From Gammaproteobacteria bacterium (GTDB taxonomy: Bacteria; Pseudomonadota; Gammaproteobacteria; Burkholderiales; Rhodocyclaceae): a stretch of DNA of 64,000 nucleotides. Below the pieces are notes generated by a model, which ran no database searches, was not told the origin of the DNA, and saw only the letters and a list, made by a program, of their open reading frames with translations. Numbering within the stretch: the first letter of the stretch is position 1; each line of letters begins with the position of its first letter. The translations under genes were made by a program, and so were the position numbers. The stretch is from the NCBI GenBank assembly GCA_018828385.1, contig JAHJVE010000023.1:434001-498000 (forward strand). The letters are read 5' to 3'. Below are positions 2,239 to 62,199 of this stretch, piece by piece.

Positions 2239-2993
2239 AACGGAGCCTGATAGCCTTTTTCGTTTGCATTTTTGGCCTGTTTTTCCAGTCGACCGTAGCA
2301 GCCGCCGATTTACCGGCAACCATCGAAAAAGTTAAACCATCAATCGTCGCCATCGGTACCTACAAGAAAACCCGGAGCCCTCCGTTCAATTTTCGGGGGA
2401 CCGGCTTTGTTTTTGGCGCCGGAAACCGAGTAGCCACTAACGCCCACGTCCTGCCTGAACCCGGTATTCCCAATAGCCCCGAATTGGCCATACTTAGCCG
2501 ATTACCCAACGGCAACGCGACGATCCGTCCGGCCAGAGTCATCGCGCGTGATAACTCCCACGACGTCGCTATCATCGGATTCGATGGCCCAGTTCTGCTG
2601 GCACTCGCTCTCGGCGACGCGTCTTCAGTAAAAGAGGGTCAAGGAGTCGCCTTCACCGGTTTTCCAATTGGCGGCGCACTCGGATTTTCTCCGACTACAC
2701 ATCGAGGGATCATTTCTGCCATCGTGCCAATCGCACTCCCCAGCGGCAATTCGATACAACTCAATGAGAAACTGATCAAACAACTGAGAAGTGGCAGTTT
2801 CGATATTTTTCAACTAGACGCGACTGCCTATCCTGGCAACAGCGGCAGCCCGGTTTTCGATCCTGAAAGCGGTCAAGTTATTGGCATAATCAACATGGTA
2901 TTTATTAAAAGCACCCGTGAAGCGGCGATATCTACCCCTTCCGGGATTACATACGCCATACCAATCAATTACTTACGAGAACTTGCCTACTAG
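2235..2993 (+). CDS. secreted trypsin-like serine protease (HtrA/DegP-like protease domain, no PDZ)
   Basis: Predicted periplasmic S1-family protease of 252 residues. Signal peptide at residues 1-24, ending in VAAA. Catalytic triad visible: His71 (TNAHVL), Asp110 (SHDVAIIGF) and Ser203 (PGNSGSPVF). No PDZ domain follows, so it is shorter than DegP. The start is GTG at 2235, overlapping the TGA of the transglycosylase gene (GTGA), which suggests translational coupling. Part of the signal-peptide coding sequence (2267-2300) is a degenerate copy of the dispersed 40-bp repeat of this window. Substrate unknown. Confidence 0.85.
   Translation: MKRSLIAFFVCIFGLFFQSTVAAADLPATIEKVKPSIVAIGTYKKTRSPPFNFRGTGFVFGAGNRVATNAHVLPEPGIPNSPELAILSRLPNGNATIRPARVIARDNSHDVAIIGFDGPVLLALALGDASSVKEGQGVAFTGFPIGGALGFSPTTHRGIISAIVPIALPSGNSIQLNEKLIKQLRSGSFDIFQLDATAYPGNSGSPVFDPESGQVIGIINMVFIKSTREAAISTPSGITYAIPINYLRELAY
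2267..2300 (-). repeat. dispersed 40-bp repeat, copy 1 (inside protease signal-peptide codons)
   Basis: Reverse-oriented, diverged copy. It keeps GACCGTAGCA preceded by CATTTTTGG and a T-rich stretch. It is read in frame as part of the hydrophobic signal sequence and cleavage region of the protease. Weaker match than the intergenic copies. Confidence 0.5.
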
Positions 2994-3099
2994 TCAGAAG
3001 CTGAGATGAAAAGTACCCAAAAAGCCACGCTTGGCTAAATCTCCGGAGTGGGCTATGCGATTCCGTGGAGTTGCTCGCCAGCACACGTTAAATTCCCCA

Positions 3100-4215
3100 T
3101 CAGGCATTCCAAATGTTTGGGGCGTTTCCATCAGCCGTCGTCTCATTGTCCCGAATGAGCGCTTTCCTTCCCAGATGATAGGCTAATAGATGCAATGGCA
3201 TCCGCAGCCAATGCGACCGAAGATATAGCGCAAAACGTGCTAACCGGGTTCCCGTTTCATCGGTGCTTGAGTGTACCGGCCTAAGAGCATGCATATAGCA
3301 AAAGTCCATGATGTGCAGAAGCGCCCCCCTGGGCCGGGCAACCATGGCGTCCTTGAGAACACCGCTCGGGATCGGAGTTCCCAATATCGAATTCGTATAT
3401 CTCAATGCATAGAACAGCGGGCGCGCAAGACCCAATTCAAGTGCACGCGGGACCAGTTTCTCCCAAAAACAGTCCTTGCAACCAAATTCACGGAGAAGAC
3501 TGTCGAGATCGAAAAGGTCACGTAAACCTTTTTCGAATTCCCCTTCATGAAACAGGTGTGTTGCACTATGAAGAAACATGTCAGTGGGTTGCAGCATATA
3601 CACACTGTTGTGTCCGGCGAGGGGCATTGCGGCCGCCAGCAATGCCTCCGTATTTACCTTTACCCGTGCAGTCGGGGGCAAAATCGAGTGGTGAACGTCA
3701 ATTACCGTTCCGCGGCGAACGTGGCGCATTGGGGGAATTTCGTGCATCCAGCGTCGATAGTAACGTTGATCATATTCGTCGTATTGCAAACTCCGCCAGC
3801 CATGGAGCATCAACCCGCTCTCGACATCAGCCAACCGGTGCTTGGGTACCAGGATATCGACATCAGAAAATAAGCGTCCTCGCGCCGAACTTAACTCAGC
3901 CAGGACGTAGGCAGCACCTTTGAGGAGAATTACTGGCATCTCTATATCAGCCACCGCCTTGCGGATGCAGTCAATTTCCCACCGCATGGCGATATTCTGG
4001 CGATCCACCAACCGCAATGCCGATATCAGATGCTGTCGAGGGGCCTGCGGTACTATTTCTAGCAGATTCGCTTCAACGAAGTGATTGGCTAGTCGTGCGA
4101 GAAGATTGGCACTACGCGCTTGCCGGATTAGCAAATCCCACTGGCTTGCCGTAGCACTCAACAACAGGGTTGGTTCGGTAAGCAGTGCGCGCAGCAAAAA
4201 ATCACGTTCAATCAT
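3100..4215 (-). CDS. nucleotidyltransferase family protein (NTP_transf_5-like) of the HprK-related cassette
   Basis: 371-residue protein with a nucleotidyltransferase core: LLKGAAYVLAEL, then RLFSDVDILV with Asp118 and Asp120 as the likely metal-binding pair. This matches the uncharacterised nucleotidyltransferase family found in lasso-peptide and exosortase-type gene clusters. It would transfer a nucleotide or sugar-nucleotide-like group to an unknown acceptor. Its start overlaps the end of the HprK-related kinase gene by 8 bp, so it is the last gene of a four-gene minus-strand operon with a PqqD-like protein and a secreted protein. Function is inferred from family and context. Confidence 0.75.
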   Translation of the reverse strand: MIERDFLLRALLTEPTLLLSATASQWDLLIRQARSANLLARLANHFVEANLLEIVPQAPRQHLISALRLVDRQNIAMRWEIDCIRKAVADIEMPVILLKGAAYVLAELSSARGRLFSDVDILVPKHRLADVESGLMLHGWRSLQYDEYDQRYYRRWMHEIPPMRHVRRGTVIDVHHSILPPTARVKVNTEALLAAAMPLAGHNSVYMLQPTDMFLHSATHLFHEGEFEKGLRDLFDLDSLLREFGCKDCFWEKLVPRALELGLARPLFYALRYTNSILGTPIPSGVLKDAMVARPRGALLHIMDFCYMHALRPVHSSTDETGTRLARFALYLRSHWLRMPLHLLAYHLGRKALIRDNETTADGNAPNIWNA

Positions 4216-5128
4216 GAACGCACTCCGCTACCAGACGATCAAGGGCCACTACCGCAGCTTCCAGATCACTATAGGTAATACGATAACAATCGCATTGGTC
4301 GATCAACTCGCCGACCGCCTGGAAACCGTGAACACCGAGAATATCGTAATTGAACGATTGTTCCGCAATCAGGAGAAAGGTGTGTGCAGAACTGTTCAAC
4401 TCTAGGCTGAACGGTGTATCAGGCAAGTACTTTGGCAATACGATCCTGGCCGGCAACGCGGAACTCAGCACCTGCTGAACGCTCGCCGACGGCGGCTGCA
4501 TCAAGGCCACAGTACCTTTCGTCGTATCCGCCACAGGGTCGGACATCACTACTCCAGGGGCAAAGCTCTTGATCACATCTATTGAGGCGTTTTTTAGATT
4601 GACTGGGCGAGCCATGCCGTAAATCAAGCCGCTATCCATGTCATAGAGCGCTAACTCATCCGAAAGGAGGCGCCATCCGCGACAGACAAGTCCTGCGCAA
4701 AGAGTGCTTTTCCCCGATCCGGGTGGAGCCGGTAACACTACGGCCTTCCCGTTCTTTTCTACCACGGCGGCATGAATTACCAAATATTGATGACAATGGG
4801 CGGCAACACACCAATTGAGTCCCCATTCGAGCATCGGTAGAGCTTGACCAAGCGGAAGCGGCTTGAAAGCCGGAATTCCGTCAAAGTAAAACAACACTTG
4901 TGGCTTTATCCAGCGACGAAGTCCGGAGGGCGGCGCAAGTCGAACATGAAAATCCGCGAATTCCTTGGTATCTCCAAGCTGAAATTCTCCGTACATCAAC
5001 GCCAAGTTCTTTGCAAGCGACTTGACCGATGATTGAATCCGCACGACAAAAGGCGATATCCTGATCAACAGATCACCCCGCTCCAAGCGGTAAACCAAGT
5101 CAGCAGGGGCTAGTTCGGATACTCTCAA
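4208..5128 (-). CDS. HprK-related kinase A
   Basis: 306-residue protein related to HPr kinase/phosphorylase but lacking its N-terminal domain. The Walker A loop is PPGSGKST (about 135-142), followed by an LLSDE segment (154-158) like the acidic HprK motif. No HPr or PTS gene lies nearby, so the substrate is unlikely to be HPr. HprK homologues in lasso-peptide clusters phosphorylate the peptide, a useful precedent. The ATG overlaps the stop of the PqqD-like gene (ATGA) and the 3' end overlaps the nucleotidyltransferase gene, indicating strict coexpression. The family matches TIGRFAM HprK_rel_A from memory. Confidence 0.82.
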   Translation of the reverse strand: MRVSELAPADLVYRLERGDLLIRISPFVVRIQSSVKSLAKNLALMYGEFQLGDTKEFADFHVRLAPPSGLRRWIKPQVLFYFDGIPAFKPLPLGQALPMLEWGLNWCVAAHCHQYLVIHAAVVEKNGKAVVLPAPPGSGKSTLCAGLVCRGWRLLSDELALYDMDSGLIYGMARPVNLKNASIDVIKSFAPGVVMSDPVADTTKGTVALMQPPSASVQQVLSSALPARIVLPKYLPDTPFSLELNSSAHTFLLIAEQSFNYDILGVHGFQAVGELIDQCDCYRITYSDLEAAVVALDRLVAECVHD

Positions 5129-7421: not shown

Positions 7422-7435
7422 TTCGCCTTTTGGGC

Positions 7436-7473
7436 ATTGCTACGGTCGACCGGAAAAATATGCCAAAAACAAA
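7436..7473 (+). repeat. dispersed 40-bp repeat, copy 2 (between dksA and pnp)
   Basis: Forward copy beginning 15 bp after the dksA stop: ATTGCTACGGTCGACCGG, then an A-rich second half with TGCCAAAAAC. It abuts the dksA/pnp terminator stem. Confidence 0.7.
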
Positions 7474-7494
7474 GGGCGCCGCAAGGCGCCCTTT
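7471..7494. terminator. bidirectional intrinsic terminator, dksA/pnp
   Basis: Perfect 10-bp stem AAAGGGCGCC / GGCGCCCTTT with a GCAA loop. It sits between convergent genes, with a T-rich stretch on the minus-strand exit (pnp side). Confidence 0.88.
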
Positions 7495-7517: not shown

Positions 7518-9665
7518 TTATTGCTGCGGCTCTTGAGCTGCGGCTTCGGTAGCTACCGGCTGAGCAGCGGCTGCCCCCTCTTCAGTTGCAGCGGCCTTCA
7601 TCGACAGCTTGACGCGACCGCGATCATCGGTTTCGAGAACCTTGACGCGAACGATCTGGCCTTCCTTGACGTAGTCTTCGACCTTGTTGACACGTTCCTG
7701 AGCGATCTGGGATATGTGCAATAGACCATCCTTGCCCGGCAGCACGGAAACGATTGCGCCGAAATCAAGGATTTTGAGCACAGTACCTTCGTAGATCTTG
7801 CCGATCTCGACTTCAGCCGTGATCGCATCGATACGGGCACGGGCAGCGGCAGCGGCTTCGCCACTGCTCGAAGCGATGGTGATCGTACCGTCGTCCTGGA
7901 TATCGATCGTGGTGCCGGTTTCTTCGGTCAGGGCGCGGATAACTGCACCGCCCTTGCCGATGACGTCACGGATCTTTTCCGGATTGATCTTGAAGGTGTA
8001 AAGACGCGGGGCGTAGGCCGACATTTCTTCACGCGGGCCGGCGGCAGCTTCCTGCATCAGATTCAGGATGTGGATGCGGGCATCCTTGGCCTGGGCCAGC
8101 GCAACCTGCATGATTTCCTTGGTGATGCCCTGAATCTTGATGTCCATCTGCAGCGCGGTGATACCGCTGGTCGAACCAGCAACCTTGAAGTCCATGTCGC
8201 CGAGATGATCTTCGTCGCCCAGAATGTCTGTCAGCACGGCGAAACGGTTGCCATCCTTGATCAGACCCATGGCGATACCGGCAACGTGCGCCTTGAGCGG
8301 CACACCAGCGTCCAGCAGGGCCAGACAGCCACCGCAAACGGAAGCCATCGAGGACGAACCGTTGGATTCGGTAATTTCCGAAACCAGACGCATCGAGTAG
8401 GAGAAATCTTCCGGCTTCGGCAGCACGGCGAGCAGCGCGCGCTTGGCCAGGCGACCGTGACCGATTTCGCGACGCTTCGGCGTACCGACACGACCGCATT
8501 CACCAGTAGCGTACGGGGGCATGTTGTAGTGCAGCATGAAGCGGTCACGATATTCGCCAGCCAGTGCATCGATGATCTGCTCATCGCGGTTGGTGCCCAG
8601 CGTGGCGACGGCCAGGGCCTGGGTTTCGCCACGGGTGAACAGGGCCGAACCATGGGTGCGCGGCAGAACGCCAGAACGCATGGTGATCGGACGCACGGTG
8701 CGCGTGTCGCGACCGTCGATACGCGGCGCACCGCTCAGGATGCGGCCACGAACGATGGAAGCTTCGATTTCGTGGAACAGGTTGCCGACAGTGTTTTCAT
8801 CCGGAGCACCTTCGCCCTGGCACAGCGCGGCAATGGCCTCAGCACGGGTAACCTTGACGGCCTGGCTGCGGGTTTGCTTGACGGTAATGTTGTAGGCTTC
8901 TTCGAGCTTGGCACTGACCAGAGCGGACAGGCTGGCAACCAGCGCTTCGTCCTTCGGCGCAGCTTCCCATTCCCATTCCGGCTTGCCGGCTTCTTCGACC
9001 AGTTCGTTGATGGCATTGATCGCCTTCTGCATTTCGGTGTGGCCAAAAACGACGGCGCCGAGCATGACTTCTTCGGACAGCTGGTCGGCTTCGGATTCAA
9101 CCATCAGCACGGCGGCTTCGGTACCGGCGACGACGAGGTCGAGCTGGCTGCCCTTGAGCTGGCTCAGGGTCGGGCACAGAACGTACTGGCCGTCGATGTA
9201 ACCGACGCGGGCAGCGCCGATCGGACCGTTGAATGGCACGCCGGAGATGGCCAGGGCAGCGGAAGCACCGATCAGGGCCGGAATATCGGAATCAATTTCC
9301 GGATTCAGGGACATCACGGTAGCGATGACCTGGACTTCGTTGTAGAAGCCATCGGGGAACAGCGGACGGATCGGACGATCGATCAGACGGCAGGTCAACG
9401 TTTCCTTTTCGGAAGGACGGCCTTCGCGCTTGAAGAAACCACCGGGGATACGGCCGGCAGCGTAGGTCTTTTCCTGATAATCAACGGTCAGCGGGAAGAA
9501 ATCCTGACCTGGTTTGGCATTCTTGGCGGCCACGACGGTGACCAGAACCACGGTTTCTTCCATGGAAACGAGGACGGCGCCGCCAGCCTGGCGGGCAACT
9601 TCGCCGGTTTCGATGGTGACCTGATGAGCACCATAGGCGAAGGTTTTTTTCACGACATTAAACAT
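7518..9665 (-). CDS. pnp: polyribonucleotide nucleotidyltransferase (PNPase)
   Basis: 3'-5' phosphorolytic exoribonuclease of RNA turnover. 715 residues: two RNase PH-like cores, then a KH domain with [10 protein letters not shown] and an S1 domain ([18 protein letters not shown]). A short Ala/Glu/Gln tail follows. Length is normal for the family. It follows rpsO on the minus strand, the classic rpsO-pnp order, but a terminator separates them and the AT-rich 9666-9740 segment probably holds a pnp promoter or leader. Confidence 0.98.
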
Positions 9666-10173: not shown

Positions 10174-11073
10174 CTAATCAGCGAGTTGAATCAGTCGTTT
10201 TGGCCACAGGCGATTGCCCTGCCCCGGCTCGCCAATACCTATCAGGCGCGCGTTTTCATAGACGCGAATCTTGCCGCTCAGGCCGGCCGGCAAATCAACC
10301 GGATTGCCATGACTGAAACGCTGCGCCGCCTCGCCTTCGATGTTAAGAATTGGCAAGGTGTGCAATAGCGCATCGACCGGTTTCAGGTGGGCCATGCGCC
10401 CCGCTTCGTCGAGGCCTTCAAGGTCGGCAAGAGTAACAGCACCCTCCAGCTCGAGGTCGCCAACGCGAGTTCGGCGCAAGGCAGCCAGGTGTGCACCACA
10501 ACCAAGTGCCGCACCGATGTCAGCCGCCAGAACGCGGATGTAGGTGCCCTTGCTGCAGGACACGCGCAGCGTCAGGGCGTCACCCGCAAAGTCGAGCAGC
10601 TCGATGGCGTGAATGGTGACCGCCCTCGCCTCGCGCTCGACTTCGATACCCTTGCGAGCCAGTTCGTAGAGCGGACGACCATCACGCTTCAGGGCCGAGT
10701 GCATGGGCGGAATCTGCTGAATATCGCCGGTGAATTGCGGCAGCAATTTCAAAATTGCCGCTTTTTCCGTGTTGACCGTAGCAGTCGCCGTCACCTTGCC
10801 CTCAGCGTCGCCAGAATCGGTGGTCACGCCCAGTTTGAGGACAGCCTCGTAGGTTTTGTCGGCATCGAGCAAATCAGCCGAAAACTTTGTCGCCTCGCCA
10901 AAACACAGCGGCAACAAGCCAGTAGCCAGAGGGTCCAGGGTGCCCGTATGGCCGCCCTTGGCCGCCGAGAACAGGCGGCGCGCCTTTTGCAGCGCATCGT
11001 TCGAGGTAAATCCGATGGGTTTGTCGAGCAACAGCACACCATCGACCTGTTTCCAGGCCTTCTTGACTTGCAT
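10174..11073 (-). CDS. truB: tRNA pseudouridine(55) synthase TruB
   Basis: Makes pseudouridine 55 in the tRNA T-loop. 299 residues; catalytic Asp47 in GGHTGTLDPLATGLL; PUA-like C-terminal part. Residues from about 97 to 110 (ATVNTEKAAILKLL) are encoded by a degenerate copy of the dispersed repeat, in a variable surface segment just before the conserved QIPPMHSALKRDG block. Last gene of the rimP-nusA-infB-rbfA-truB run, 7 bp after rbfA. Confidence 0.97.
   Translation of the reverse strand: MQVKKAWKQVDGVLLLDKPIGFTSNDALQKARRLFSAAKGGHTGTLDPLATGLLPLCFGEATKFSADLLDADKTYEAVLKLGVTTDSGDAEGKVTATATVNTEKAAILKLLPQFTGDIQQIPPMHSALKRDGRPLYELARKGIEVEREARAVTIHAIELLDFAGDALTLRVSCSKGTYIRVLAADIGAALGCGAHLAALRRTRVGDLELEGAVTLADLEGLDEAGRMAHLKPVDALLHTLPILNIEGEAAQRFSHGNPVDLPAGLSGKIRVYENARLIGIGEPGQGNRLWPKRLIQLAD
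10746..10784 (-). repeat. dispersed 40-bp repeat, copy 3 (inside truB)
   Basis: Forward relative to truB: GCTACGGTCAAC, GGAAA, then CAATTTTGAAATTG. Read in the same frame (ATVN-type) as the gcvP copy. Confidence 0.6.
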
Positions 11074-16226: not shown

Positions 16227-17252
16227 TTAGGTACTCTCAGAGCCCTTTCGGGGCGCTGGTACCTTGTTTTCGAGGTCGCGCAGCAGCATTTTGATTTCGA
16301 CCTCTTTTAGCTCACGCGCCATGCCACGTTTCAATTGCGGCGGCAGCACGAACGGGCCGTAGCGAACACGGATCAATCGGCTGACTGTCACGCCGACCGC
16401 CTCGAACATGCGACGCACTTCGCGGTTGCGGCCTTCAAAGATGGTAACGCGATACCAATGGTTGGCACCTTCGCCACCACCGTCATGCAGCGTCCCGAAA
16501 TTGGCCCGGCCATCCTCGAGTTCGACACCATGCAGCAATTGCTGCTGGGCTTCGAGCGTCAGTTCGCCGAGCACGCGCACGGCGTATTCGCGGACCAGCT
16601 CCGAACTCGGGTGCATTAGCTTGTTGGCCAGATCGCCGGACGTCGTAAAAATCAGCAGGCCGGAGGTGTTGAAGTCAAGACGACCAACGTTGATCCAGCG
16701 GCCACCGCGCATGCGGGGCAGCGCCGCGAAGACCGACGGACGGCCATCCGGGTCGTCACGCGAGACAATCTCGCCTTCTGGCTTGTGATACATCAGGACG
16801 CGAGGCGGACGGGTGCTGCCGGTGAAGCGGATGTTGATCAGCCGGCCGCCGATCTTGACCTTGTCGGTCGGCACTACGGACTGGCCAATGGTCGCCACGA
16901 CGCCGTTGACGGTGACCTTGCCGGCTGAAATCCACTCTTCCATTTCGCGGCGCGAGCCGACGCCTGCCTGGGCGAGAATTTTCTGCAGGCGTTCCGGTTT
17001 GGCTTCGACGACCGCCTTGCCATTGCGCGCAATATTGCCGCGGCTGGCCCGACCCGTTGCCGGCAGCGCGGCGCGGCGACGCGGCTTGGGCGCCTCGACC
17101 ACTTCTTCAGCCTCGGGCGCCTCTTCGCGGGCATTGCGGGGGGTGCGACCGCGCGGGGCTGGATTGCTACGGTCAACCGGAATTTCCGGCCTTTTTTGAA
17201 ATCCGCCCGGCTTGCTGGCGGAACGGAGAGGTGTGCGTTTATTGGTTTTCAT
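16227..17252 (-). CDS. rluB: 23S rRNA pseudouridine(2605) synthase RluB
   Basis: Isomerises U2605 in 23S rRNA. 341 residues: a disordered basic N-terminal extension of about 85, an S4 RNA-binding domain ([19 protein letters not shown], 87-105) and the RsuA/RluB catalytic core with Asp193 in [11 protein letters not shown]. Residues 17-30 of the extension (ending PVDRSN) are encoded by a copy of the dispersed repeat. The start overlaps the scpB stop by 14 bp, so it sits in the scpA-scpB-rluB run. Confidence 0.95.
17163..17202 (+). repeat. dispersed 40-bp repeat, copy 4 (inside rluB)
   Basis: Good match in the first half (ATTGCTACGGTCAACCGG), diverged second half ending TTTTGAAAT. Antisense to rluB, read as PEIPVDRSN, the same frame as the epsF copy. 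Confidence 0.8.
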
Positions 17253-24123: not shown

Positions 24124-24138
24124 GAACCAGCATTTAAA

Positions 24139-24235
24139 GCCCCCTCCTCTTCAAGGGGAGGGCCGGGGTGGGGATGGGTGGTGACGCAGACCAAACCCAT
24201 CCCCCTCCCATCCTCCCCCTTGAAGGGGGAGGGGC
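24139..24235. repeat. GC-rich REP-like inverted repeats between gcvH and gcvP
   Basis: Two facing elements, each a small palindrome (CTCTTCAAGGGGAGGG and CCCCCTTGAAGGGGGAGGGG), joined by GGGGATGGGTGG and CCCATCCCCCTCCCATCC, so the pair can fold into a long hairpin. A related element lies at 53417-53485. Probably a repetitive extragenic palindrome that may affect gcvP expression or mRNA ends. Confidence 0.75.
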
Positions 24236-24274
24236 ACAGAAAATCGCCGCGACCTACCGTTTTCAAGGATTCCC

Positions 24275-27181
24275 ATGCCGTTGAATCTTCCCCTTTCCGC
24301 CCTCGAGCAGCACGACGAGTTTATCGGCCGCCACATCGGCCCATGCTCGACCGAAATGGCCGCCATGCTGGCCACTATCGGTGCCGACAGCCTCGAGCAG
24401 TTGATAACCCAGACCGTCCCCGCCGCCATCCGTCTGCCGGCCGATCTGCCGCTGCCCGCCCCGCGTCGCGAACACGAAGCACTGGCCGACCTCAAGGCCA
24501 TCGCCAGCAAGAATGTCGTCAACAAGTCCTGCATCGGCATGGGCTACTACGACACCCTGACGCCCAAGGTCATCGTCCGGAATGTTCTGGAAAACCCGGG
24601 CTGGTACACCGCCTACACGCCCTACCAGGCTGAAATCGCCCAGGGCCGCCTCGAAGCGCTCATGAATTTCCAGCAGATGGTCGTCGACCTGACCGGCCTG
24701 GAAATCGCCAACGCGTCGCTGCTCGACGAAGCCACCGCCGCCGCCGAAGCGATGACCATGGCGCGCCGCGTTTCCAAGTCCAAATCCAACCGGTTTCTGG
24801 TCGATGCCAACTGCTTTCCGCAGACCATCGATGTCGTCAAGACCCGCGCCGGCTATTTCGGCTTCGAATTGGTCATTGCTACGGTCAACCCGGAAAATGA
24901 CCCAAAATTGGAAAGTGAAGACTTCTTCGGCGCCCTGCTCCAATATCCGGGCGACAACGGCGAAGTCCGCGACCTGACCGCCACCATCGCCGCGCTCAAG
25001 GCCAAGGGCACCACCGTCGCCGTCGCCTCCGACCTCATGGCCCTCGTCCTGCTCAAGTCGCCCGGCGCCATGGGTGCCGACATCGCCCTCGGCTCGAGCC
25101 AGCGTTTCGGCATTCCGATGGGGTTCGGCGGCCCGCACGCCGCCTTCTTCGCCACCCGCGAAGCCTTCGTCCGCTCGATGCCGGGCCGCATCATCGGCCT
25201 GTCCAAGGATGCCCGCGGCAAGACGGCCTACCGCATGGCGCTGCAAACGCGCGAGCAACACATTCGCCGCGAGAAGGCCAATTCCAACATCTGCACCTCA
25301 CAAGTGTTGCTCGCCAACATGGCCGGCATGTACGCCGTCTATCACGGCGCCGAAGGCCTGCGCACCATTGCCGGCCGTATCCACCGGCTGACCGCGATCC
25401 TCGCCGAGGGCCTCAAGCGCGCCGGCGTCAATCTGCTGACCAAGCAGTTCTACGACACCGTTCATTTCGAACTTGGCGCCCGCGCCGAGGCGGTTTACAA
25501 CGATGCCCTGGCTACCGGTTACAACCTGCGCCGCGTCTCGCCCGGCGTACTGGGCATCTCGCTCGACGAAACGACGACGCGCAGCGATGTCGCCACGTTG
25601 TTCAAGCTGATCACCCAGGTCACGCTCGACATGGACGTCATCGACGCCCAGGTTGCCGCCGCCGACTCCGCCCTGCCGGAAGCACTGATCCGTAGCGACG
25701 CCGTCCTCCAGCATCCGGTGTTCAACACGCACCACACCGAACACGAAATGCTGCGCTACCTCAAGTCGTTGCAGAACAAGGATCTGGCGCTCGACCACTC
25801 GATGATCTCGCTCGGCTCGTGCACCATGAAGCTCAACGCGACCAGCGAAATGATCCCGGTCACCTGGCCGGAATTCGGCGGCCTGCACCCGTTCGCGCCG
25901 CGCGATCAGGCTGTCGGCTACCTGGAAATGATCGCCGGCCTGACCGAATGGCTGAAGACCGTCACCGGCTTCGACGCCATCTGCATGCAGCCGAACTCCG
26001 GCGCCCAGGGCGAATATGCCGGTCTGGTCGCCATCGACCGCTACCACGCCAGCCGCGGCGAGGAACACCGCAACGTCTGCCTGATCCCCCGATCAGCCCA
26101 CGGCACCAACCCGGCCACAGCGCAGATGGCCAACATGAAGGTCGTCGTCGTCGATTGCGACGACAACGGCAACGTCGATGTCGTCGATCTGATGGCCAAG
26201 GCCGAAGAACACAAGGACGACCTGGCCTGCCTGATGATCACCTACCCGTCGACCCACGGCGTGTTCGAGGAAGCGATCAAGGACATCTGCGCCATCGTGC
26301 ACAAGTTCGGCGGCCAGGTTTACATGGACGGCGCCAACCTCAACGCCCAGGTCGGCCTGACCTCGCCCGGCTTCATCGGCGCCGACGTCAGCCACATGAA
26401 CCTGCACAAGACCTTCGCCATCCCGCACGGTGGCGGCGGACCGGGCATGGGGCCGATCGGCCTCAAGGCTCATCTGGCACCGTTCATGGCCGACCACGCG
26501 GTGGCGGCGACCGGCCCAGCAGATCGCGTCAATGCCGGCCAGGGCGCTGTCTCCGCCGCCCCGTTCGGCTCGGCTTCGATTCTGACCATTTCGTGGATGT
26601 ACCTCGCCATGCTCGGCGGTGAAGGCGTCAAGAAGGCCACGCAAGTCGCCATCCTCAACGCCAACTACGTTGCCCAGCAGTTGAAGGCGCATTACCCGGT
26701 GCTCTACGTCGGCAAGAACGGCCGCGTCGCCCACGAGTGCATCTTCGACATCCGCCCGCTCAAGGCAGCGACCGGGATCAGCGAAACCGACATCGCCAAG
26801 CGCCTGATGGACTACGGCTTCCACGCACCCACGGTGTCCTTCCCGGTGGCCGGCACGATCATGGTCGAGCCGACCGAATCCGAGTCGAAGGCCGAACTGG
26901 ACCGCTTCATCGCAGCCCTGGTCAGCATTCGTGAGGAAATCCGCCAGATCGAGAACGGCGCGTGGACGGCCGACAACAACCCGCTCAAGAATGCCCCGCA
27001 TTCACAGGCGGACGTCATCGACGGCGAGTGGAAGCATCCGTACAGTCGCGAACAGGCCGTCTTCCCGCTGCCCTGGGTGGCGGCCAACAAGTTCTGGCCG
27101 AGCGTCAATCGCATCGACGATGTGTATGGCGATCGCAACCTGAACTGCGCCTGCCCGCCGATGGAAGCCTACGAAGACTGA
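24275..27181 (+). CDS. gcvP: glycine dehydrogenase (decarboxylating), P protein
   Basis: PLP enzyme that decarboxylates glycine and loads aminomethyl onto GcvH. 968 residues, the long fused form. The PLP lysine is Lys712 in [18 protein letters not shown]. Residues about 201-214 ([14 protein letters not shown]) come from a well-preserved copy of the dispersed repeat in the N-terminal half; the frame stays open and conserved blocks flank it. The downstream hypothetical gene overlaps by one base. Confidence 0.97.
24875..24914 (+). repeat. dispersed 40-bp repeat, copy 5 (inside gcvP)
   Basis: One of the better coding copies: ATTGCTACGGTCAACC, GGAAAATG, then CCCAAAATTGGAAA. Sense to gcvP, read in the ATVN frame. 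Confidence 0.85.
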
Positions 27182-32570: not shown

Positions 32571-32597
32571 GAACATCCACACCTATAAAAAACGTTG

Positions 32598-38817: not shown

Positions 38818-38856
38818 ATTTCAAAATTGGCCAAAATTTCCGGTTGACCGTAGAAA
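38818..38856 (-). repeat. dispersed 40-bp repeat, copy 9 (intergenic)
   Basis: Reverse copy, strong match: ATTTCAAAATTGGCC, AAAATTTCCGG, TTGACCGTAG. Lies between the Fic gene and the nucleotidyltransferase gene. Confidence 0.88.
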
Positions 38857-38936
38857 GCCTGCAGCGACGCCTTGGTTTCGATCCAGCGCATACAAGCCCC
38901 CCATTTTCCTTTAACCCCACCCTTTGTCATGTCAGA

Positions 38937-40092: not shown

Positions 40093-41199
40093 TCACTTAC
40101 CTGGCAAATACCTGGCCAACAAATCCTCGTACTGCGCCAGCACATGCGGCCATGTAAACTCTCGCAGGAAGCGTCCGCGACTATTGCCCGACAAGGCCTG
40201 CAAACGAGACGGCTCAGCCAACAACGGCCCAAGTTGCTCCGAGAAAGAAGCTTCCCCATCGAAATACACCGCGCCATCCCCCGCCACCCAGCGATTGAAG
40301 CGGTTGTCGTGGGCAATGACCGCATTCCCGGCCCCCAGCGCCTCAACCAATGAGGGATTGGTACCACCCACCTGATGGCCGTGCACATAAGCCGCGCAAT
40401 GAAAGCGCAAAGCCTGGACGACCGTCTTGTCGTAGATAGCCCCGGGGAACAAAACCTCATCACTTGCCGCACTCTTGATCGCCTGGTGATAAGCGTTCTC
40501 ATCCTGATAATTGCCCAGCACCACCAAGTGATAACCGCGTTTCGCCGCAGAAAATCCCTGCACAATCTCCAGCAACGAGTTTTCCGGCTCGGCACGAGCA
40601 ACCACCGTCAGATAACGCCCCGGCTCAACCCCGAGCGCACGCACCGGCGCCTCATCCGCCGTCAACACCTCATCGGCCCCATAAGGAATCGTCGTGATCT
40701 TGCTGCCGCGCACACGCGACTCCAGATGCACCTTGATCTGCGGGTGGTCTGCCACCAGATGATTGCCCAGCCAGCAGCCCGCCCAATCGTTCATCCAGAA
40801 CCACGTCTTGGCAATGCCTCCCCACTTGGCACGCGACCACTCGATTCCATCCATGTTGATCAGGTTCGGAATGCCCTTCAAACGCAGCAGGCTGCAGAAC
40901 ACCGCCGTGTTGTAACCCAGCGTCAAACACAAATCACCAAACTGCGCGGCATGCGCTGTTGCCTTCCAATCGAACACAATCGTGCCCTTGGGGCCAGTCT
41001 GGGCAACCGGAATACGTACCCGCTCCACACCACGCCACGTATCGTTGAACACCGGGCCGCTGCCATCCTCCTGGCAATAGACAATCACTCGCCATCCACG
41101 GTCAACGAGAAAAAGAGCCAAATATTCGGCAAAGGTTTCAAAGCCACCGTGGGCGGCAGGCACGCCACGCGTGCCAAGGATTCTTAGGGTTTTTTGCAT
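40093..41199 (-). CDS. glycosyltransferase (DUF1972 / GT4-like)
   Basis: 368 residues. Starts with LRILGTRGVPAAHGGFETF, the hallmark of the DUF1972 glycosyltransferase group, often rhamnosyl- or similar transferases of exopolysaccharide. C-terminal part has the GT4 pattern GGTNPSLVEALGAGNAVIAHD. Two bases separate it from the next glycosyltransferase gene. Acceptor and sugar not identifiable. Confidence 0.85.
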   Translation of the reverse strand: MQKTLRILGTRGVPAAHGGFETFAEYLALFLVDRGWRVIVYCQEDGSGPVFNDTWRGVERVRIPVAQTGPKGTIVFDWKATAHAAQFGDLCLTLGYNTAVFCSLLRLKGIPNLINMDGIEWSRAKWGGIAKTWFWMNDWAGCWLGNHLVADHPQIKVHLESRVRGSKITTIPYGADEVLTADEAPVRALGVEPGRYLTVVARAEPENSLLEIVQGFSAAKRGYHLVVLGNYQDENAYHQAIKSAASDEVLFPGAIYDKTVVQALRFHCAAYVHGHQVGGTNPSLVEALGAGNAVIAHDNRFNRWVAGDGAVYFDGEASFSEQLGPLLAEPSRLQALSGNSRGRFLREFTWPHVLAQYEDLLARYLPGK

Positions 41200-46268: not shown

Positions 46269-47744
46269 TCAACTTGAATGCTTCGTGCATCGGCAATACT
46301 CGACGTAACCAACAAAGAGCCAGAACAGCACCTGCATGGGCGCACCACCAACCATAGACACTTGATATGGCAGCATCACTGCAAAACCAAACATCGCGCC
46401 TCGTGCAACTTTAAGCATGCCAAGATGGTTGCCCGAGCAGAGCCCGCTAGCAACGATGCGGTGCGCGTTAAGTGCAGTTCGTCCGATAACCACGCAAAAC
46501 ATCAGAAATCCGGTCAGCCCCGAATCCCAAAGCAGCTTGTTGGCTGCATGAGCATCAAGTCCATATCCAAACGACCTGACCGCGTTACCCTCGCCCAATA
46601 CTCGACTAGCCTCAAGCGTCGACGCCATGCCATATCCGAACATGGCATGAAGAAAATCAAAATCTAGAATATTGTTGTTCCACCAATGAACCAGCGCAGC
46701 AACCCGACCGCGATGGAGACGGTCGACCATAAAATTGGGGTCAAAAGAGTATGTAAACGCATGCCAGAACTCATCGCTACCTGCCGACCAGAAACGCCAT
46801 GCGTATATACCTGCAAGTATTCCAAGCATCGCGCCACCGCCAAGCAATAGCGCAAACATTCGAGTTGGCGAAGAACGTAGTTCCTCAAGAAACACAACGA
46901 CGAGCATGATTGGCGCGAGTACGAAAACAATCTTCGTTTCAGCCATCCCAATACAGGCAAGTGCCGCAATAGGCATTAGCCGAAATGCGATTCGCACCAA
47001 ACGCCCCTGTGGTTTGACCGCAAACGAAATGCAAGCGGCTATAAGTACGAAAACAGCCATTTCACCGGTATAGCCACCGCCTAATGGATCACCACCGAAC
47101 GTACCGACGATTGCCTCTGCTCCGCCACCAATTGCTGCCAAAGAATGTTGACGCATAGGAGCCACAACCAGCGCCTGGTGCAGGCAGAATGGCAATTGAA
47201 GCAAAGCAATACCAACAAGCATCGTTGGCATTTTGGACAGCGTTGAATCGGTGGCGAGATAACGGCAGGCTATAAACACTCCTATGAATGGAAGGTAATT
47301 CCGCACCCCGACAAGAAATTGAAGCGGGGAAATACCATTCAATAAACTCGCTACCAGTAAAGCAAGAACGTAGGCCAAAACAGCAGGCATTACTGATTTG
47401 GTCAGCGCAGTTGGAAGAGACCTGGTTTTACCCAACGCAGATAACAGAGCAGCTCCACCCAACAAAAGCACAATACCGGATGCTCCCCAGTTCGCTTGAC
47501 CCACCCGCAAATAAAACTCGGCCAACCCACTGATCACTAGCGCAAATATCAACGCTGCGAAGAATAGAAACTGTGGTGAAAACATTAGCGCCATACCTAA
47601 AATCAGCGCAGCAAACCCGCCGATTAGCATCGGCGAACCAGTTACAGCGATTAACCCGGCGAATGCAGCCAGCAACAGCAATCCCAAATAGCCAAATACG
47701 CTACTCAGGGTGCTACCGTTGTAAATGATTGAAAACTTTTGCAT
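46269..47744 (-). CDS. O-antigen ligase/Wzy-like polymerase membrane protein
   Basis: 491 residues with about 11-12 membrane segments and a large periplasmic loop around residues 320-400 (FWHAFTYSFDPNFMVDRLHRG). Size and layout match the Wzy/WaaL superfamily, which has low sequence identity. Together with the flippase it makes a Wzx/Wzy assembly system. Lower GC than the housekeeping genes. Confidence 0.75.
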   Translation of the reverse strand: MQKFSIIYNGSTLSSVFGYLGLLLLAAFAGLIAVTGSPMLIGGFAALILGMALMFSPQFLFFAALIFALVISGLAEFYLRVGQANWGASGIVLLLGGAALLSALGKTRSLPTALTKSVMPAVLAYVLALLVASLLNGISPLQFLVGVRNYLPFIGVFIACRYLATDSTLSKMPTMLVGIALLQLPFCLHQALVVAPMRQHSLAAIGGGAEAIVGTFGGDPLGGGYTGEMAVFVLIAACISFAVKPQGRLVRIAFRLMPIAALACIGMAETKIVFVLAPIMLVVVFLEELRSSPTRMFALLLGGGAMLGILAGIYAWRFWSAGSDEFWHAFTYSFDPNFMVDRLHRGRVAALVHWWNNNILDFDFLHAMFGYGMASTLEASRVLGEGNAVRSFGYGLDAHAANKLLWDSGLTGFLMFCVVIGRTALNAHRIVASGLCSGNHLGMLKVARGAMFGFAVMLPYQVSMVGGAPMQVLFWLFVGYVEYCRCTKHSS

Positions 47745-51732: not shown

Positions 51733-52419
51733 CTAGTTACGGTTTGTTGCCCCAATAAACTTGTCGCGACTTTTATCATCTAGTGCAGAAATAAGATCAT
51801 TCAGGAATGCATCCTGATTCAGGTAGGCGTTCTGCAGATTAGCGTCAATTGAGGAGACTCTAACAAGCATTCCATCGGGAATTTTCCCGGTGAGCCCATA
51901 TCTCAATTCAGCGATTTTCTTGCCAAGCCCGCTCTCTACTACTTGGTTACCTACTGTTATCCAATAGGTAACTGGTTCAATCCTTGAACCAAGAGAAGTC
52001 TGTATGCGTGTTACAGGAACCTTCCTGGTTGCAAGAACTACCGTGCTTGCGTCTTTTCCATGAACAACAAAGCCTTGTGCGGGATAACACACTTCAGGCT
52101 TGTGAACCTCACTTCGATCTGTCTGGTCACTGCCATAGGCCAATGAAAGCATGATGCGGTAGCCATTCCCGTTCACGTAAGTACGAGATAGTGTTTGGCT
52201 ATACGTTTTTTTTATTACCTCTGCTTGGTTAGGGTCAACGATGAGGGCGCTGACGCGCTCTTCTTCAACCCATGCACCTAATTGCTTAGGAACAATGGCT
52301 TCCAACTCAAAAGCTGGCCCTTGCTCTGCAATTTTGTGCACAGGCCGCATAGCGATGGCCAGGCCTGAACTAGCCAGCATGAGAACAAGCAGGATGATGT
52401 TGCGGATCGGGAGTTTCAT
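51733..52419 (-). CDS. epsI: exosortase-associated protein EpsI
   Basis: 228 residues with one N-terminal membrane anchor. Family segments LGAWVEEE, YGSDQTDRSEVHKPEVCYPAQGF and SRIEPVTYWITVG. EpsI sits next to or is fused to exosortase in many Gram-negatives and is needed for polymer export. ATG overlaps the xrtB stop by 4 bp. Confidence 0.92.
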   Translation of the reverse strand: MKLPIRNIILLVLMLASSGLAIAMRPVHKIAEQGPAFELEAIVPKQLGAWVEEERVSALIVDPNQAEVIKKTYSQTLSRTYVNGNGYRIMLSLAYGSDQTDRSEVHKPEVCYPAQGFVVHGKDASTVVLATRKVPVTRIQTSLGSRIEPVTYWITVGNQVVESGLGKKIAELRYGLTGKIPDGMLVRVSSIDANLQNAYLNQDAFLNDLISALDDKSRDKFIGATNRN

Positions 52420-53318
52420 GCTTGCGCCTTGTTCACGACAGCCTGCCCGCGCCAGCGCTTTTCGCCGAGTTGCAGCAGCGAATCGACGCCCATGATGATG
52501 AGCAGCGCGGTGATGAAGAGGACCATGCCGGCAAATCCGTGCAGGAAGCCTTGGCCTGCTTCGTCGCCAAAGTGGTAGGTGATCAGCGTGAGGACCATGA
52601 CGCGGATGACGTTGGCGGTGAAGGAGATGGGGATGATGAGGATAGCCAGGGCAACGTTGCGGAACAGGGAGTCGTGGCGAACGATGTTGAGGTAGAGCAG
52701 GCCGAGTGCTTCGAGGGTGAACAGGGTTTGCAGGCCGGCGCAGGCGTCGGCGACGAGCAGTTTGTATTGGCCGATCTGCAGGATGACGCCGCTGCGCGAA
52801 ATGGGGTAGCCGACCGAGTAGAGGACATTTTCGGACACATAGGAGACGGCCATCTTCATGGGCATAGTCAGCGCATCAACAAAAGCGCCGGGCAGCGGGA
52901 TCATGAAGAGCATGAAGAAGAGCGGGAACCAGGCTGCGCCGAGGGCGGACCAGCCGCGCAGGATGAGCAGCAGGCTGGCGATGACGACGATTTGCGAGCC
53001 GACTTCAAAGAGCAGGATGTCTTGCGAGCGGCCGATGGTGTAGAGCAGCAGGCCGAGGATGAAGAGCGGCCAGCCGGCTTTTGCGGGGGCCGCGGGTGTG
53101 CTGTGGATGGTCGGACCTTGTTTCCAGAAGAACCAGGCGGCGACGCTGAGGATGATGGGGCCGTGGGCCTGGGCTTCGGTGGCCCAGATGGTTCTGGAGA
53201 GATCAACCCAGGTGGGGACGTAGAGGGCGATGAGGCCGAGGAGAATGGGGAACCATTCGGCGATGGCCGGGCGGGTTTGCGCCGGGAGTAGCCGGGTGTT
53301 TTGTGCGGCGTGGTTCAT
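52416..53318 (-). CDS. xrtB: exosortase B
   Basis: Membrane cysteine protease-like transpeptidase of the PEP-CTERM system, about eight membrane segments, 300 residues. Catalytic Cys193 in VADACAGLQTLFTLEALG, Arg239 in NVIRVMVLTL and His260 in GFLHGFAGM. The B type is always next to an eps-type exopolysaccharide locus. No PEP-CTERM substrate with an intact sorting tail was seen in this window. A dispersed repeat lies 20 bp upstream of the start. Confidence 0.94.
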   Translation of the reverse strand: MNHAAQNTRLLPAQTRPAIAEWFPILLGLIALYVPTWVDLSRTIWATEAQAHGPIILSVAAWFFWKQGPTIHSTPAAPAKAGWPLFILGLLLYTIGRSQDILLFEVGSQIVVIASLLLILRGWSALGAAWFPLFFMLFMIPLPGAFVDALTMPMKMAVSYVSENVLYSVGYPISRSGVILQIGQYKLLVADACAGLQTLFTLEALGLLYLNIVRHDSLFRNVALAILIIPISFTANVIRVMVLTLITYHFGDEAGQGFLHGFAGMVLFITALLIIMGVDSLLQLGEKRWRGQAVVNKAQA

Positions 53319-53338
53319 GGCCGAGCCTTTGCCGGTTG

Positions 53339-53378
53339 AATGCTACGGTCAACCGGGAATTTTGCCCAAAATTGAAAT
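53339..53378 (+). repeat. dispersed 40-bp repeat, copy 10 (xrtB leader)
   Basis: Near-consensus: AATGCTACGGTCAACCGG, GAATTTTGCCC, AAAATTGAAAT. With the preceding CCGGTTGA (53332-53339) it forms an 8-bp stem against TCAACCGG (53349-53356). Confidence 0.92.
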
Positions 53379-54441: not shown

Positions 54442-55890
54442 TCAGGCTTTCGTCGCAGCAGGCTGATGGCCCGTTTTGAAGGGGGTTTCACGATTGCTAC
54501 GGTCAACCGGCTTTTTTGCCCAAAATCGAAATCCTCTTTTTGCCCGGGGCAGCGCGGAATCGAGTTCGGCCAGCACAGGCAGGTCGAGCGCCAGGGCGAG
54601 GTCTTCGGCCGAACGGATGCGGCGCTGGCTGAGTTCGAGGACGAGCGCGGCGCCAACGCCGAGCATGCCGCCGAGGAAAATGGAAACCAGCACGTTGAGG
54701 AAGACCTTGGGCCGGGAGTGCTCGGTCGGCTCAGTGGCCGGGCTGAGCACGAGCACGTTGGTCTGCTGCGACTGGCCTTCGAGATTGGTTTGCATCATGC
54801 GCTGGCCAACGGCCTCGTAGGCGCGGCGGGCGGTTTCGACGTCGTTGACCAGCACGGAGAGTTCATCGCGCTGCGAGCGCAGGTCGAGTACCCGTTTTTT
54901 CTGTTCTTCGATCGCCTTCTTGAGTTCGTCCTGCTTTACGATACCGAACTTGCTGGCGACGGCGTTCCCGCCGGAGATACGGCCGATTTCCTGACGCAGT
55001 TGCTGGCGCTGCTCGGCGATCTGGGCTTCGAGCTGCTGGACTTGCGGATGATTCTTGCCGAGGTTGCTGCCGATTTGCGAAAGCTGCGATTCGGCCCGGG
55101 CGATTTCGGCTTTGAGGCCCTGGACCAGCGGGTTCTGCAGGACTTCGAGCGAGAGTTCGCTGGTGCCGCTCTTTTGCCGGCTGGAGGCGTCGGCACGCTG
55201 GGCCTGGGTAGCGGAGAGCTGCATGGTCAGGTCGTTGAGGCGGGCGGTTTCGTTGTCCATCATGCGTTCGTCGGTAACGACGATGCCTTTTTCCTGCTGG
55301 TAGGCGGAAAGGCGGGACTGGGCTTTTTCGAGGTTGGCGCGCAGGCCTTTCTGGCGCTCTTCAAACCAGGCGCTGTATTGGCGGGCCGGCTCGACGCGCA
55401 TTTCGATGGAGGTGTCGATATAGGCCTGGGCAAAGGCGTTGGCAACGGCGGCGGCAAAAATCGGGTCGGCGCCGGAGAAGCTCACGCTGATCACATTGCT
55501 CTCGCGGGAAGGCTTGATGTCTAGCTTCTTTTGCAGGATTCCGGCGTAGTAGCCTTCCAGCGTGCCCTTGCCTTCGCTGGCTTCTTTCCAGCTGTCGACG
55601 GCCTCGGCACTCTTCTCGAAGCCGAGCAGCTTGACGACGCGGGTGGCGACGCGCTCGCTGTTGATGATGTCCATCTGCGTCGCCATGTAGCCGGGCGCCA
55701 TCATGCCCTGCATGATCATGCCGGCGATGGGGTCGGGCGATTTGACGTCGATGACCAGCGAGGTGGTGGCCGTGTATTCCTTGGGCAGGATCAGGCTGAT
55801 GACCAAGGTGGTCAGCACCGTGACGCCAAAAATCGACAGCGCCAGCTTGCGGCGTGCCCAGAGGATGAGGAGAAATTGCTGAAAAGTCAT
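54442..55890 (-). CDS. epsF: chain-length determinant protein EpsF (Wzz/GNVR type)
   Basis: 482 residues: membrane segment near the N-terminus, long periplasmic coiled coils and a second membrane segment at about 405-425 (NVLVSIFLGGMLGVGAALVLEL). The cytoplasmic tail ends in an insertion from the dispersed repeat: residues about 453-466, reading WAKKPVDRSN. Anchors the kinase EpsG and spans the periplasm toward EpsE. Confidence 0.92.
   Translation of the reverse strand: MTFQQFLLILWARRKLALSIFGVTVLTTLVISLILPKEYTATTSLVIDVKSPDPIAGMIMQGMMAPGYMATQMDIINSERVATRVVKLLGFEKSAEAVDSWKEASEGKGTLEGYYAGILQKKLDIKPSRESNVISVSFSGADPIFAAAVANAFAQAYIDTSIEMRVEPARQYSAWFEERQKGLRANLEKAQSRLSAYQQEKGIVVTDERMMDNETARLNDLTMQLSATQAQRADASSRQKSGTSELSLEVLQNPLVQGLKAEIARAESQLSQIGSNLGKNHPQVQQLEAQIAEQRQQLRQEIGRISGGNAVASKFGIVKQDELKKAIEEQKKRVLDLRSQRDELSVLVNDVETARRAYEAVGQRMMQTNLEGQSQQTNVLVLSPATEPTEHSRPKVFLNVLVSIFLGGMLGVGAALVLELSQRRIRSAEDLALALDLPVLAELDSALPRAKRGFRFWAKKPVDRSNRETPFKTGHQPAATKA
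54493..54532 (+). repeat. dispersed 40-bp repeat, copy 11 (3' end of epsF)
   Basis: Close match: ATTGCTACGGTCAACCGG, CTTTTTTGCCC, AAAATCGAAAT. Antisense to epsF; read as FWAKKPVDRSN, the frame also used in rluB. Confidence 0.9.
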
Positions 55891-61620: not shown

Positions 61621-61872
61621 ATGGGATCACGCTGGCTCGCGGGCCTTTTCTCGCGCCTCAAGGCGCTGTTTTTCGGCTGCCCCGCCCCGCTCTCCGACTA
61701 TGCCCGCGCCCGGCAACTGATTGCCGCGGTCGACCGTGGCGGCATCCCGCTCAATCCGGCCAAGGTCAATGCCATCGCCCGCAGCCTCGGCCTCGAGGTT
61801 GCCCGCCACGCGCCGGTCGAGGCCACGCTGGAGCGCATCCGCCTCGCCCTGGCGCGCGCCACCGAACCATGA
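61621..61872 (+). CDS. small hypothetical protein
   Basis: 83 residues, basic and helical (LAGLFSRLKALFFGCP, then VNAIARSLGLEV). No known family. The stop overlaps the start of the GIY-YIG gene, so they are likely cotranscribed; this supports it being real. Divergent from the exonuclease gene. Confidence 0.6.
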   Translation: MGSRWLAGLFSRLKALFFGCPAPLSDYARARQLIAAVDRGGIPLNPAKVNAIARSLGLEVARHAPVEATLERIRLALARATEP

Positions 61873-62147
61873 GCAAGCCCTGGTTTCTATACATGATCGA
61901 GTGTGCCGATGGCAGCATCTACACCGGCATCGCCGTCGATGTCGAAAGCCGCTACGCCGCCCACTGCGCCGGAACCGGCGCCCGGTACACGCGCTCGCAT
62001 CCCCCGCTCCGTCTGCTCGGCTACGAAAACCATCCGGACAGATCATCGGCGTCGAAAGCGGAATACCGGGTCAAGCGACTGACACCTGGCGAGAAGCGCC
62101 GGTACGCCGCTTCACTGCACCCCGTCCCCGCCAATTTTCCCGGCTGA
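61869..62147 (+). CDS. GIY-YIG nuclease-family protein (YhbQ-like)
   Basis: 92 residues. Motifs FLYMIECADGSIYTGIA and SKAEYRVKRLTPGEKR. Single-domain UvrC-N-type endonuclease fold, function unknown. The ATG overlaps the upstream stop (ATGA). Confidence 0.87.
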   Translation: MSKPWFLYMIECADGSIYTGIAVDVESRYAAHCAGTGARYTRSHPPLRLLGYENHPDRSSASKAEYRVKRLTPGEKRRYAASLHPVPANFPG

Positions 62148-62162
62148 AAACCGGAAACTTCC

Positions 62163-62199
62163 ATTTCAATTTTGGGCAAAAATTCCGGTTGACCGTAGG
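62163..62199 (-). repeat. dispersed 40-bp repeat, copy 12 (intergenic)
   Basis: Reverse near-consensus copy: ATTTCAATTTTGGGC, AAAAATTCCGG, TTGACCGTAGG. Lies 15 bp after the GIY-YIG gene. Confidence 0.92.

Follow-up and report, generated by a model that had tools for sequence, protein, structure and literature searches.

The window, by which we mean the whole 64-kb stretch of DNA that was analysed, carries twelve strong copies of a dispersed 41-bp motif. All twelve repeats proposed by the first-pass annotation were found at their positions, seven on the plus and five on the minus strand, and they are the top-scoring sites of the window in a matrix scan (38.3–60.6 bits). Six lie in genes: 2263–2303 (−, 47.5 bits) in a trypsin-like protease gene (2235–2993, +), 10746–10786 (−, 49.6 bits) in a TruB-family gene, 17162–17202 (+, 50.6 bits) in a pseudouridine synthase gene (16227–17252, −), 24874–24914 (+, 53.4 bits) in a glycine dehydrogenase (gcvP-type) gene, 35708–35748 (−, 51.5 bits) in a sugar dehydratase gene (35023–36081, −; PF16363), and 54492–54532 (+, 53.6 bits) within the 3′ portion of a Wzz/GNVR-type gene (54442–55890, −). 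The copy at 27666–27706 (+, 38.3 bits) separates the gcvP-type gene from a convergent DnaJ-family gene, and that at 38818–38858 (−, 56.4 bits) lies between the open reading frames 37597–38745 and 38937–39992. Two further copies adjoin a sugar-phosphate nucleotidyltransferase gene (31131–32582, −) and an exosortase gene (52416–53318, −), at 32597–32637 (+, 60.6 bits) and 53338–53378 (+, 60.4 bits), respectively. The remaining copies are found at 62163–62203 (−, 58.5 bits) and, in non-coding DNA next to a GC inverted repeat, at 7435–7475 (+, 48.8 bits). This inverted repeat is located where a polynucleotide phosphorylase-type gene (7518–9665, −) has its 3′ end. The scan added three weaker sites absent from the first-pass annotation, at 35814–35854 (+, 22.3 bits), 41091–41131 (+, 19.0 bits) and 46712–46752 (+, 13.0 bits), and the reversed window gave no site of at least 10 bits.

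The motif reads GATTGCTACGGTCAACCGG-AAAWWW-N-GGCC-AAWWWT-GAAAT over 41 bp with sharp edges, a core followed by two A-tracts approximately 11 bp apart. TpA steps are avoided in the tracts, with only 4 in 98 all-A/T tracts vs. 73.6 when the tracts were shuffled internally; A/T hexamers in general contain 0.70 TpA each. The two small palindromes initially described as the halves of the repeat turned out not to be the conserved feature, and we rejected them after examining both halves: self-complementarity averages 74% for the CGGTCAACCG half, and 9% of 86 sites have an AT half that is at least 85% palindromic.

As had been proposed from the window, the motif belongs to a genome-wide family. The 15-base core GCTACGGTCAACCGG, allowing at most one mismatch, occurs 425 times (207 + 218) in the whole genome, and the reversed pattern is absent (0 + 0). 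Likewise, CTACGGTCAACCGG occurs 267 + 286 times genome-wide vs. 3 + 2 for its reversed pattern, and the over-represented 9-mers in 484 kb are headed by TACGGTCAA (58 vs. 2.2 expected) and ACGGTCAAC (82 vs. 5.0 expected). The motif matrix, trained on the window and C6:1–400000, detected 64 sites of at least 24 bits in 320 kb of the same genome outside the training set (56, 2 and 6 in pieces of C23 without the window, C7 and C1, respectively) and none in the same pieces reversed. We agree with the earlier view that this betaproteobacterial repeat family has no known name.

Non-coding DNA, which makes up 16% of the base pairs, holds 64 of 150 sites, an approximately 2.6-fold enrichment, with 21 sites lying between convergent genes and 6 between divergent ones. 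This enrichment, the preference for convergent gene ends and the window copy adjoining the GC inverted repeat would suit a repeated gene-end element with a regulatory or terminator role. Such an element is nevertheless extremely unlikely, as the other 86 of the 150 sites reside within genes on either strand (29 on the same and 19 on the opposite strand in the 86-site set), no palindrome is conserved, and the dialects of the motif vary by species (see below). With low GC as a stand-in for acquired DNA, the sites lie mainly in core-like DNA and are rare in acquired islands: 32 of 156 5-kb bins have a low GC content and contain 9 of 149 sites, with 30.6 expected (P = 7e-7). Even spacing of the sites was not seen; the spacing is near random (CV 1.03 vs. 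0.99 and 1.09 vs. 0.98). Even spacing, or spacing matched to the conversion-tract length, has been reported for Neisseria and is not a strict criterion for uptake sequences.

High copy number, fixed length and sharp edges are also what a non-autonomous mobile repeat jumping into genes and intergenic spaces would show, similar to REP/BIME, MITE or Rickettsia palindromic elements. REP/REPIN and Rickettsia palindromic elements are short dispersed families, some of them within genes. We located the two flanks separately for 147 sites of the present genome, 69 of which had an ortholog pair. At coding sites, the flanks are exactly 41 apart in 73 of 85 motif-less pairs, corresponding to 33 of 38 sites, and none of the 38 was empty in the motif-less orthologs compared, which show continuous sequence with substitutions and small indels. 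The first-pass annotation had implied a transposed element with empty sites and a matching transposase. Equal-length motif-less orthologs and the lack of empty sites rule out a mobile element at the coding sites tested, and differences of about the motif length or more were found at three non-coding sites. Among the non-coding motif-less pairs, 9 of 22 have the exact length and 3 of 22 are shorter by 40–71 bp; the latter represent 3 of 19 sites with differences of 40, 45 and 71 bp, once nearly the exact motif length. These three differences favor a mobile repeat, although the data do not distinguish loss of the tag from an occasional gain by insertion. Copies descending from a single ancestor would not be expected to interchange A and T without TpA. 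The lack of a conserved palindrome and of any empty coding site sets the motif apart from REP/REPIN and Rickettsia palindromic elements. Altogether, we consider a mobile repeat very unlikely. The comparison of orthologs shows that the motif inside genes arose by substitution in existing sequence.

Individual window copies can be followed in relatives as well. Both the 10746–10786 and the 17162–17202 copies align without gaps to 8 of 8 relatives, the 24874–24914 copy aligns without gaps to 4 of 8 and with 13–18 gap columns to the remaining four, and the 35708–35748 copy shows gradual loss by substitution over 28 relatives. The underlying alignment test is weaker evidence: it retained a pair only when one BLAST match covered the site, and large gaps could go unseen in this way. 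Its 24 sites reduce to approximately six positions on the chromosome, taken in several species, 7 of 12 sites of the present genome had no ortholog in the compared pieces, and its 106 "motif-less" pairs include one-base-indel shifts and relatives with dialect cores (G062 and G207). For G206, which is free of the motif and serves as the clean comparator, 5 of 10 alignment rows contain no gap, and no gap exceeds 15.

With the patterns used, abundance of the motif was confined to Azonexus/Dechloromonas, and the other genera examined in this family and class gave background counts; this restriction to the genus holds for these patterns, which may not cover every dialect. Within the genus, 11 of 76 genomes have no match to the pattern containing both tracts. 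Not all low counts are true absences, because this pattern misses copies in species whose first tract is weak, such as G204 (18 copies, but 415 sites/Mb by the core and second tract) and G062 (30 copies, but 288 sites/Mb). The core and second tract occur at 188–415 sites/Mb in 6 of 7 species of the genus, where the 335/Mb of G147 is biased upward because its 200 kb was chosen around listed matches. The genus core is RCGGTCRAC, and dialects differ between its species, as judged from small samples of both-tract sites (83 in the present genome, 24 in G177, 11 in G147 and 32 in G210); the dialect of G062 is GCTGCGGTCGAC. In the complete genome of G244, the motif cross-matches among the matches listed are spread between 164 kb and 4.28 Mb of the 4.42-Mb sequence without clustering.

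The size of 41 bp, the in-phase A-tracts and the distribution on both strands would also suit a DNA-bending protein, and the motif could be the place at which a nucleoid or chromosome-organising protein binds, bending the DNA at the phased A-tracts. Examples of sites for such proteins are matS, SlmA and KOPS sites. Dialects differing within one genus seem unlike a conserved site of this kind, however, and the background level in other genera, the absence from some genomes of the genus, the unclustered listed matches in G244 and the avoidance of AT-rich islands also speak against this explanation, which we regard as improbable.

Two families, Pasteurellaceae and Neisseriaceae, are established carriers of uptake sequences. 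We propose that the repeat is likely a DNA uptake sequence, a USS- or DUS-like tag, of a naturally competent Azonexus/Dechloromonas lineage. The Pasteurellaceae USS is the nearest known system. The first AT motif of the USS has A's at its start and T's at its end, the second is centred 12 positions downstream, and the USS is reported to have originated by substitution rather than insertion (PMC1626085). In the Hin and Apl dialects, as in the present motif, a core is followed on its 3′ side by two AT-rich tracts approximately a helical turn apart, the first running from A's to T's; both systems also have copies in the hundreds on the two strands, a substitution origin and clade dialects. The letters GCGGTCAA are common to the extended USS (AAAGTGCGGTCAATTTT, AACAAGCGGTCAAATTT) and the genus core, and the density in 6 of 7 species of the genus lies within the 31–913/Mb given for USS in PMC12616744. 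The two systems differ in the other core letters (GCTRCGGTCRACCGG), and the present dialect has A in place of the first G of the USS GCGG, with the first AT tract beginning approximately 6 nt farther from the core. The 9-bp USS cores AAGTGCGGT (4 vs. 2.9 expected) and ACAAGCGGT (2 vs. 6.6 expected) are not enriched in 784 kb. The host is a betaproteobacterium, unlike those of the USS, and the uptake role here is presumptive. The Neisseriaceae DUS, GCCGTCTGAA, has no flanking motifs (PMC1626085). It is likewise an abundant genomic tag with species dialects that favors the core genome and is absent from recent acquisitions (PMC3630211 and PMC2397512). Of the DUS dialects, we examined this one word, which is not enriched (1 vs. 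2.9 expected in 784 kb). Our literature search found no report of uptake sequences in Azonexus/Dechloromonas and, among the matches listed, none of competence in the genus.

Among the competence genes we looked for, comEC is intact and type IV pilus minor pilins are present in the genome; one of these matches ComP_DUS (PF16732), the family of the Neisseriaceae DUS pilin. A pilin of this family occurs in 70 of 76 genus genomes, including all 51 of high quality, whatever their copy number, and in none of 14 control genomes; its presence gives no clean pattern with copy number within the genus. A FimT-like pilin is 33–37% alike, partly over short stretches, in the motif-rich G210, G215, G216, G255 and G266, and is not supported as the specificity determinant. 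Neither pilin comparison yielded a receptor for the motif. The integrity of comEC showed no clean correlation with copy number either: the gene is broken or partial in the motif-free G206 and G250, in G218 (3 copies) and G211 (1 copy, at a contig edge), but also in G209 (45 copies) and G253 (33 copies), and split in G230 (456 copies).

For the uptake sequence proposed here, recognition of the core RCGGTCRAC would fall to a receptor linked to the type IV pilus, with the two phased, stiff A-tracts downstream presumably assisting. Tag-bearing DNA fragments would be preferentially taken up, enter through ComEC and recombine into the chromosome. The tag could then accumulate on both strands, mainly in core-like DNA, by mutation and biased transfer where coding and promoter constraints permit, because tagged alleles would be transferred more often. 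It is conceivable, if rather doubtful, that this USS-type system is related via its pilin receptor to that of Pasteurellaceae, given the same GCGGTCAA and pair of phased A-tracts in a betaproteobacterium. If so, uptake specificity would not have been invented by two host-associated families but would be an old, recurrent proteobacterial trait, and the dialects could be gene-exchange barriers between species of the genus.

A third lineage, of environmental bacteria, would reveal self-recognition by DNA tags to be more widespread. Dialects in closely related species would allow tests of the co-change of tag and receptor and of species barriers, and adding the tag to DNA could aid the laboratory transformation of Dechloromonas and Azonexus.

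All twelve copies of the dispersed repeat that the first-pass annotation had listed in the window were recovered on the claimed strands. Throughout the whole genome (4.3 Mb in 24 contigs), the 15-base core with at most one mismatch matched 425 times, and its reversed pattern never. We built the motif from 71 sites with up to two core mismatches in 464 kb, comprising the window and 400 kb of another contig, C6. It spans 41 bp with sharp edges: GATTGCTACGGTCAACCGG is followed by an A-tract, a single variable base, GGCC, another A-tract, and GAAAT, the centers of the two tracts lying 11 bp apart. A search of 784 kb with the matrix derived from these 71 sites gave 150 sites of at least 24 bits, against zero when the sequence was reversed; 64 of the 150 fall in the 320 kb outside the training sequence. 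The 18-base motif word ATTGCTACGGTCAACCGG is common to Azonexus/Dechloromonas genomes among the matches listed. The exact 18-mer of the motif also occurs on a contig titled Litorilinea aerophila (L067, CAMDQF010000052.1), which is perhaps misbinned. A second, unrelated repeat of ~95 bp at 24137-24250 of the window matches in either orientation and looks REP/BIME-like; it is numerous in one Azonexus/Dechloromonas genome (G210) and less so in two others (G062 and G266).

The palindromes described in the annotation for each half of the repeat proved not to be conserved across copies. A and T are freely interchangeable inside the tracts, and 98 all-A/T tracts contain only 4 TpA steps, versus 73.6 expected when letters are shuffled within tracts; the genome at large has 0.70 TpA per A/T hexamer. 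The same depletion is found at sites with the core and both tracts in this genome (9 seen versus 84.8 expected) and in its relatives G177 (4 versus 28.7), G147 (0 versus 6.4), and G210 (5 versus 32.6). An A-tract is a run of A followed by a run of T without a TpA step. Since the tracts have this composition, they point to DNA shape as the feature under selection.

We counted the core plus both tracts as RCGGTCRAC-N3-W5-N6-W5, a pattern under-counting species with a weak first tract. Of 76 genus genomes, 16 have at least 100 copies and 11 have none, with 7 reversed control matches in total, versus maxima of 3 copies in 194 genomes from other genera of the family and 2 among 368 genomes from the rest of the class. 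The one to three full copies each in G031, G012, G038, G079, and G125, from other genera of the family, are perhaps DNA acquired from Azonexus/Dechloromonas. Core plus second tract occurs at 253 sites per Mb in the present genome, 188 in G177, 288 in G062, 415 in G204, 245 in G210, 4 in G206, and 335 in G147, the last in regions chosen around matches (reversed controls, 0 to 4 counts). The motif also has dialects, which by commonest letters read TGCTACGGTCAACCGG here (83 sites), TCCCACGGTCAACCGG in G210 (32 sites), GCTGCGGTCGACNGG in G177 (24 sites), and CACGGTCGACCGTAAAAA in G147 (11 sites). The most over-represented 9-mer is GCGGTCGAC in G204 (70 versus 9.4 expected) and GCGGTCAAC in G177 (29 versus 4.8), and TGCGGTCGA ranks second in G062 (48 versus 8.7); in G204 and G062 the second tract is strong and the first weak.

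Of 30 loci fetched for the site at 35708-35748, inside a sugar dehydratase gene, 29 could be aligned, its own among them. The motif decays to ordinary sequence as relatives grow more distant, and the 93 columns displayed are gap-free apart from 3 nt inserted in a single relative. Around 7-27 kb of the window, 24 sites from five genomes, representing about six chromosomal positions, gave 173 ortholog pairs with no gap of 30 or longer. In a wider test, we placed the two 200-bp flanks of 147 sites of the present genome independently of each other on 2.6 Mb of relatives' sequence (262 loci), yielding 146 ortholog pairs covering 69 sites. Among the 85 motif-less coding pairs (38 sites), flank spacing is exactly 41 in 73 (33 sites) and 26 to 95 in the remaining 12; none has an empty site. 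We give little weight to the motif being a mobile or regulatory repeat. Of 22 motif-less non-coding pairs (19 sites), 9 are exactly 41 and in three the relative is shorter, by 40, 45, and 71 bp; at one of these, the non-coding spacer C6:4317, the present genome is 40 bp longer than G206 (L205), almost exactly the motif's size. These three differences may be either tag loss in the relative or tag gain here. Control positions 1 kb away are exactly 41 in 156 of 159 coding pairs, and motif sites therefore also occupy places tolerant of small indels. The aligned sequences point to an origin of the tag at coding sites by substitution. The accessible text of PMC1626085 describes such an origin for the uptake signal sequence (USS) of Pasteurellaceae, and that of PMC2397512 locates the DNA uptake sequence (DUS) of Neisseriaceae where the core genome is permissive.

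By gene calls from a simple codon-usage script, 86 of the 150 sites lie within genes; the other 64 are in non-coding DNA, 16% of all bases. Convergent spacers hold 21 sites and divergent spacers 6, the two classes being comparable in total length (30 and 28 kb). In a second set, of 86 sites in all, 29 intragenic sites were on the gene's strand and 19 opposite, a single frame predominating in both (19 of 29 and 13 of 19). Site density climbs with GC content: it is 0 per kb under 50% and 0.31 over 64%, and low-GC bins (32 of 156) contain 9 of 149 sites versus 30.6 expected; an AT-rich motif matched by chance should show the opposite trend. Of the largest motif deserts, one takes up 38 kb of C6 and is the longest on that contig; among the five proteins scanned there is a BREX BrxC/D ATPase (L110, C6:236715-238010). 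A second runs for 41 kb from left of the window into its first 2 kb, and of the five proteins scanned in it four are glycan-type. A third, 14.5 kb within the window, carries glycosyltransferase genes. Overall site spacing is near random. A binding site for a chromosome protein seems to us an improbable identity for the motif.

In this genome comEC is intact (772 aa), and the minor pilins form an operon. The first of them matches Pfam ComP_DUS with E 1.3e-10, passing the family's cut-off, and the second matches GspH (FimT class); PilW and PilY1 are among those that follow. The FimT-like pilin is poorly conserved across motif-rich relatives. ComP_DUS-family pilins occur in 70 of 76 genus genomes and none of 14 controls, and their presence alone therefore fails to explain copy number. 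comEC was detected in 71 of the 76, broken or partial in several, and its state showed no clean relation to copy number across them. G206, without both-tract sites, has a partial match (profile 26-240, frame 236 aa; L225, C8:1085724-1086371), as if, in this one case, competence and tags were lost together. In two species, G250 (C1:2218693-2251157; L226, L227) and G230 (C33:109608-143311; L228, L229), a ~33-kb element splits comEC at roughly the same point (PF03772 position ~28), which would presumably switch off transformation. Its large serine recombinase adjoins the 5' part of comEC; it also encodes a phage-type integrase, a family B DNA polymerase, and a D5-type primase-helicase. The cargo varies: G230 carries a type ISP restriction enzyme, whereas G250 has AAA_13 and FRG proteins.

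Our literature search, covering few subscription journals and preprints, found no report of uptake sequences in Dechloromonas or Rhodocyclales and no match to six motif words; Azonexus is co-mentioned with natural transformation in two papers. As far as the consulted portions of the sources go, the first AT motif of the USS has A's first and T's last, with the second centered 12 positions further (PMC1626085), and in H. influenzae both AT tracts are predicted to form rigid, slightly bent DNA, a shape that seems to favor uptake (PMC7811141). The excerpted text of PMC12616744 gives 9-mer USS densities of 31-913 per Mb in Pasteurellaceae and the extended forms AAAGTGCGGTCAATTTT and AACAAGCGGTCAAATTT, which have GCGGTCAA in common with the Azonexus/Dechloromonas core. 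The published USS 9-mers were not enriched in the 784 kb of the present genome. As a sign of kinship, the resemblance is suggestive, not proof. Taken together, the anatomy, the substitutional origin at coding sites, the scarcity of sites in AT-rich islands, the dialects, and the competence genes indicate that the motif is, with good probability, a DNA uptake sequence of USS architecture.
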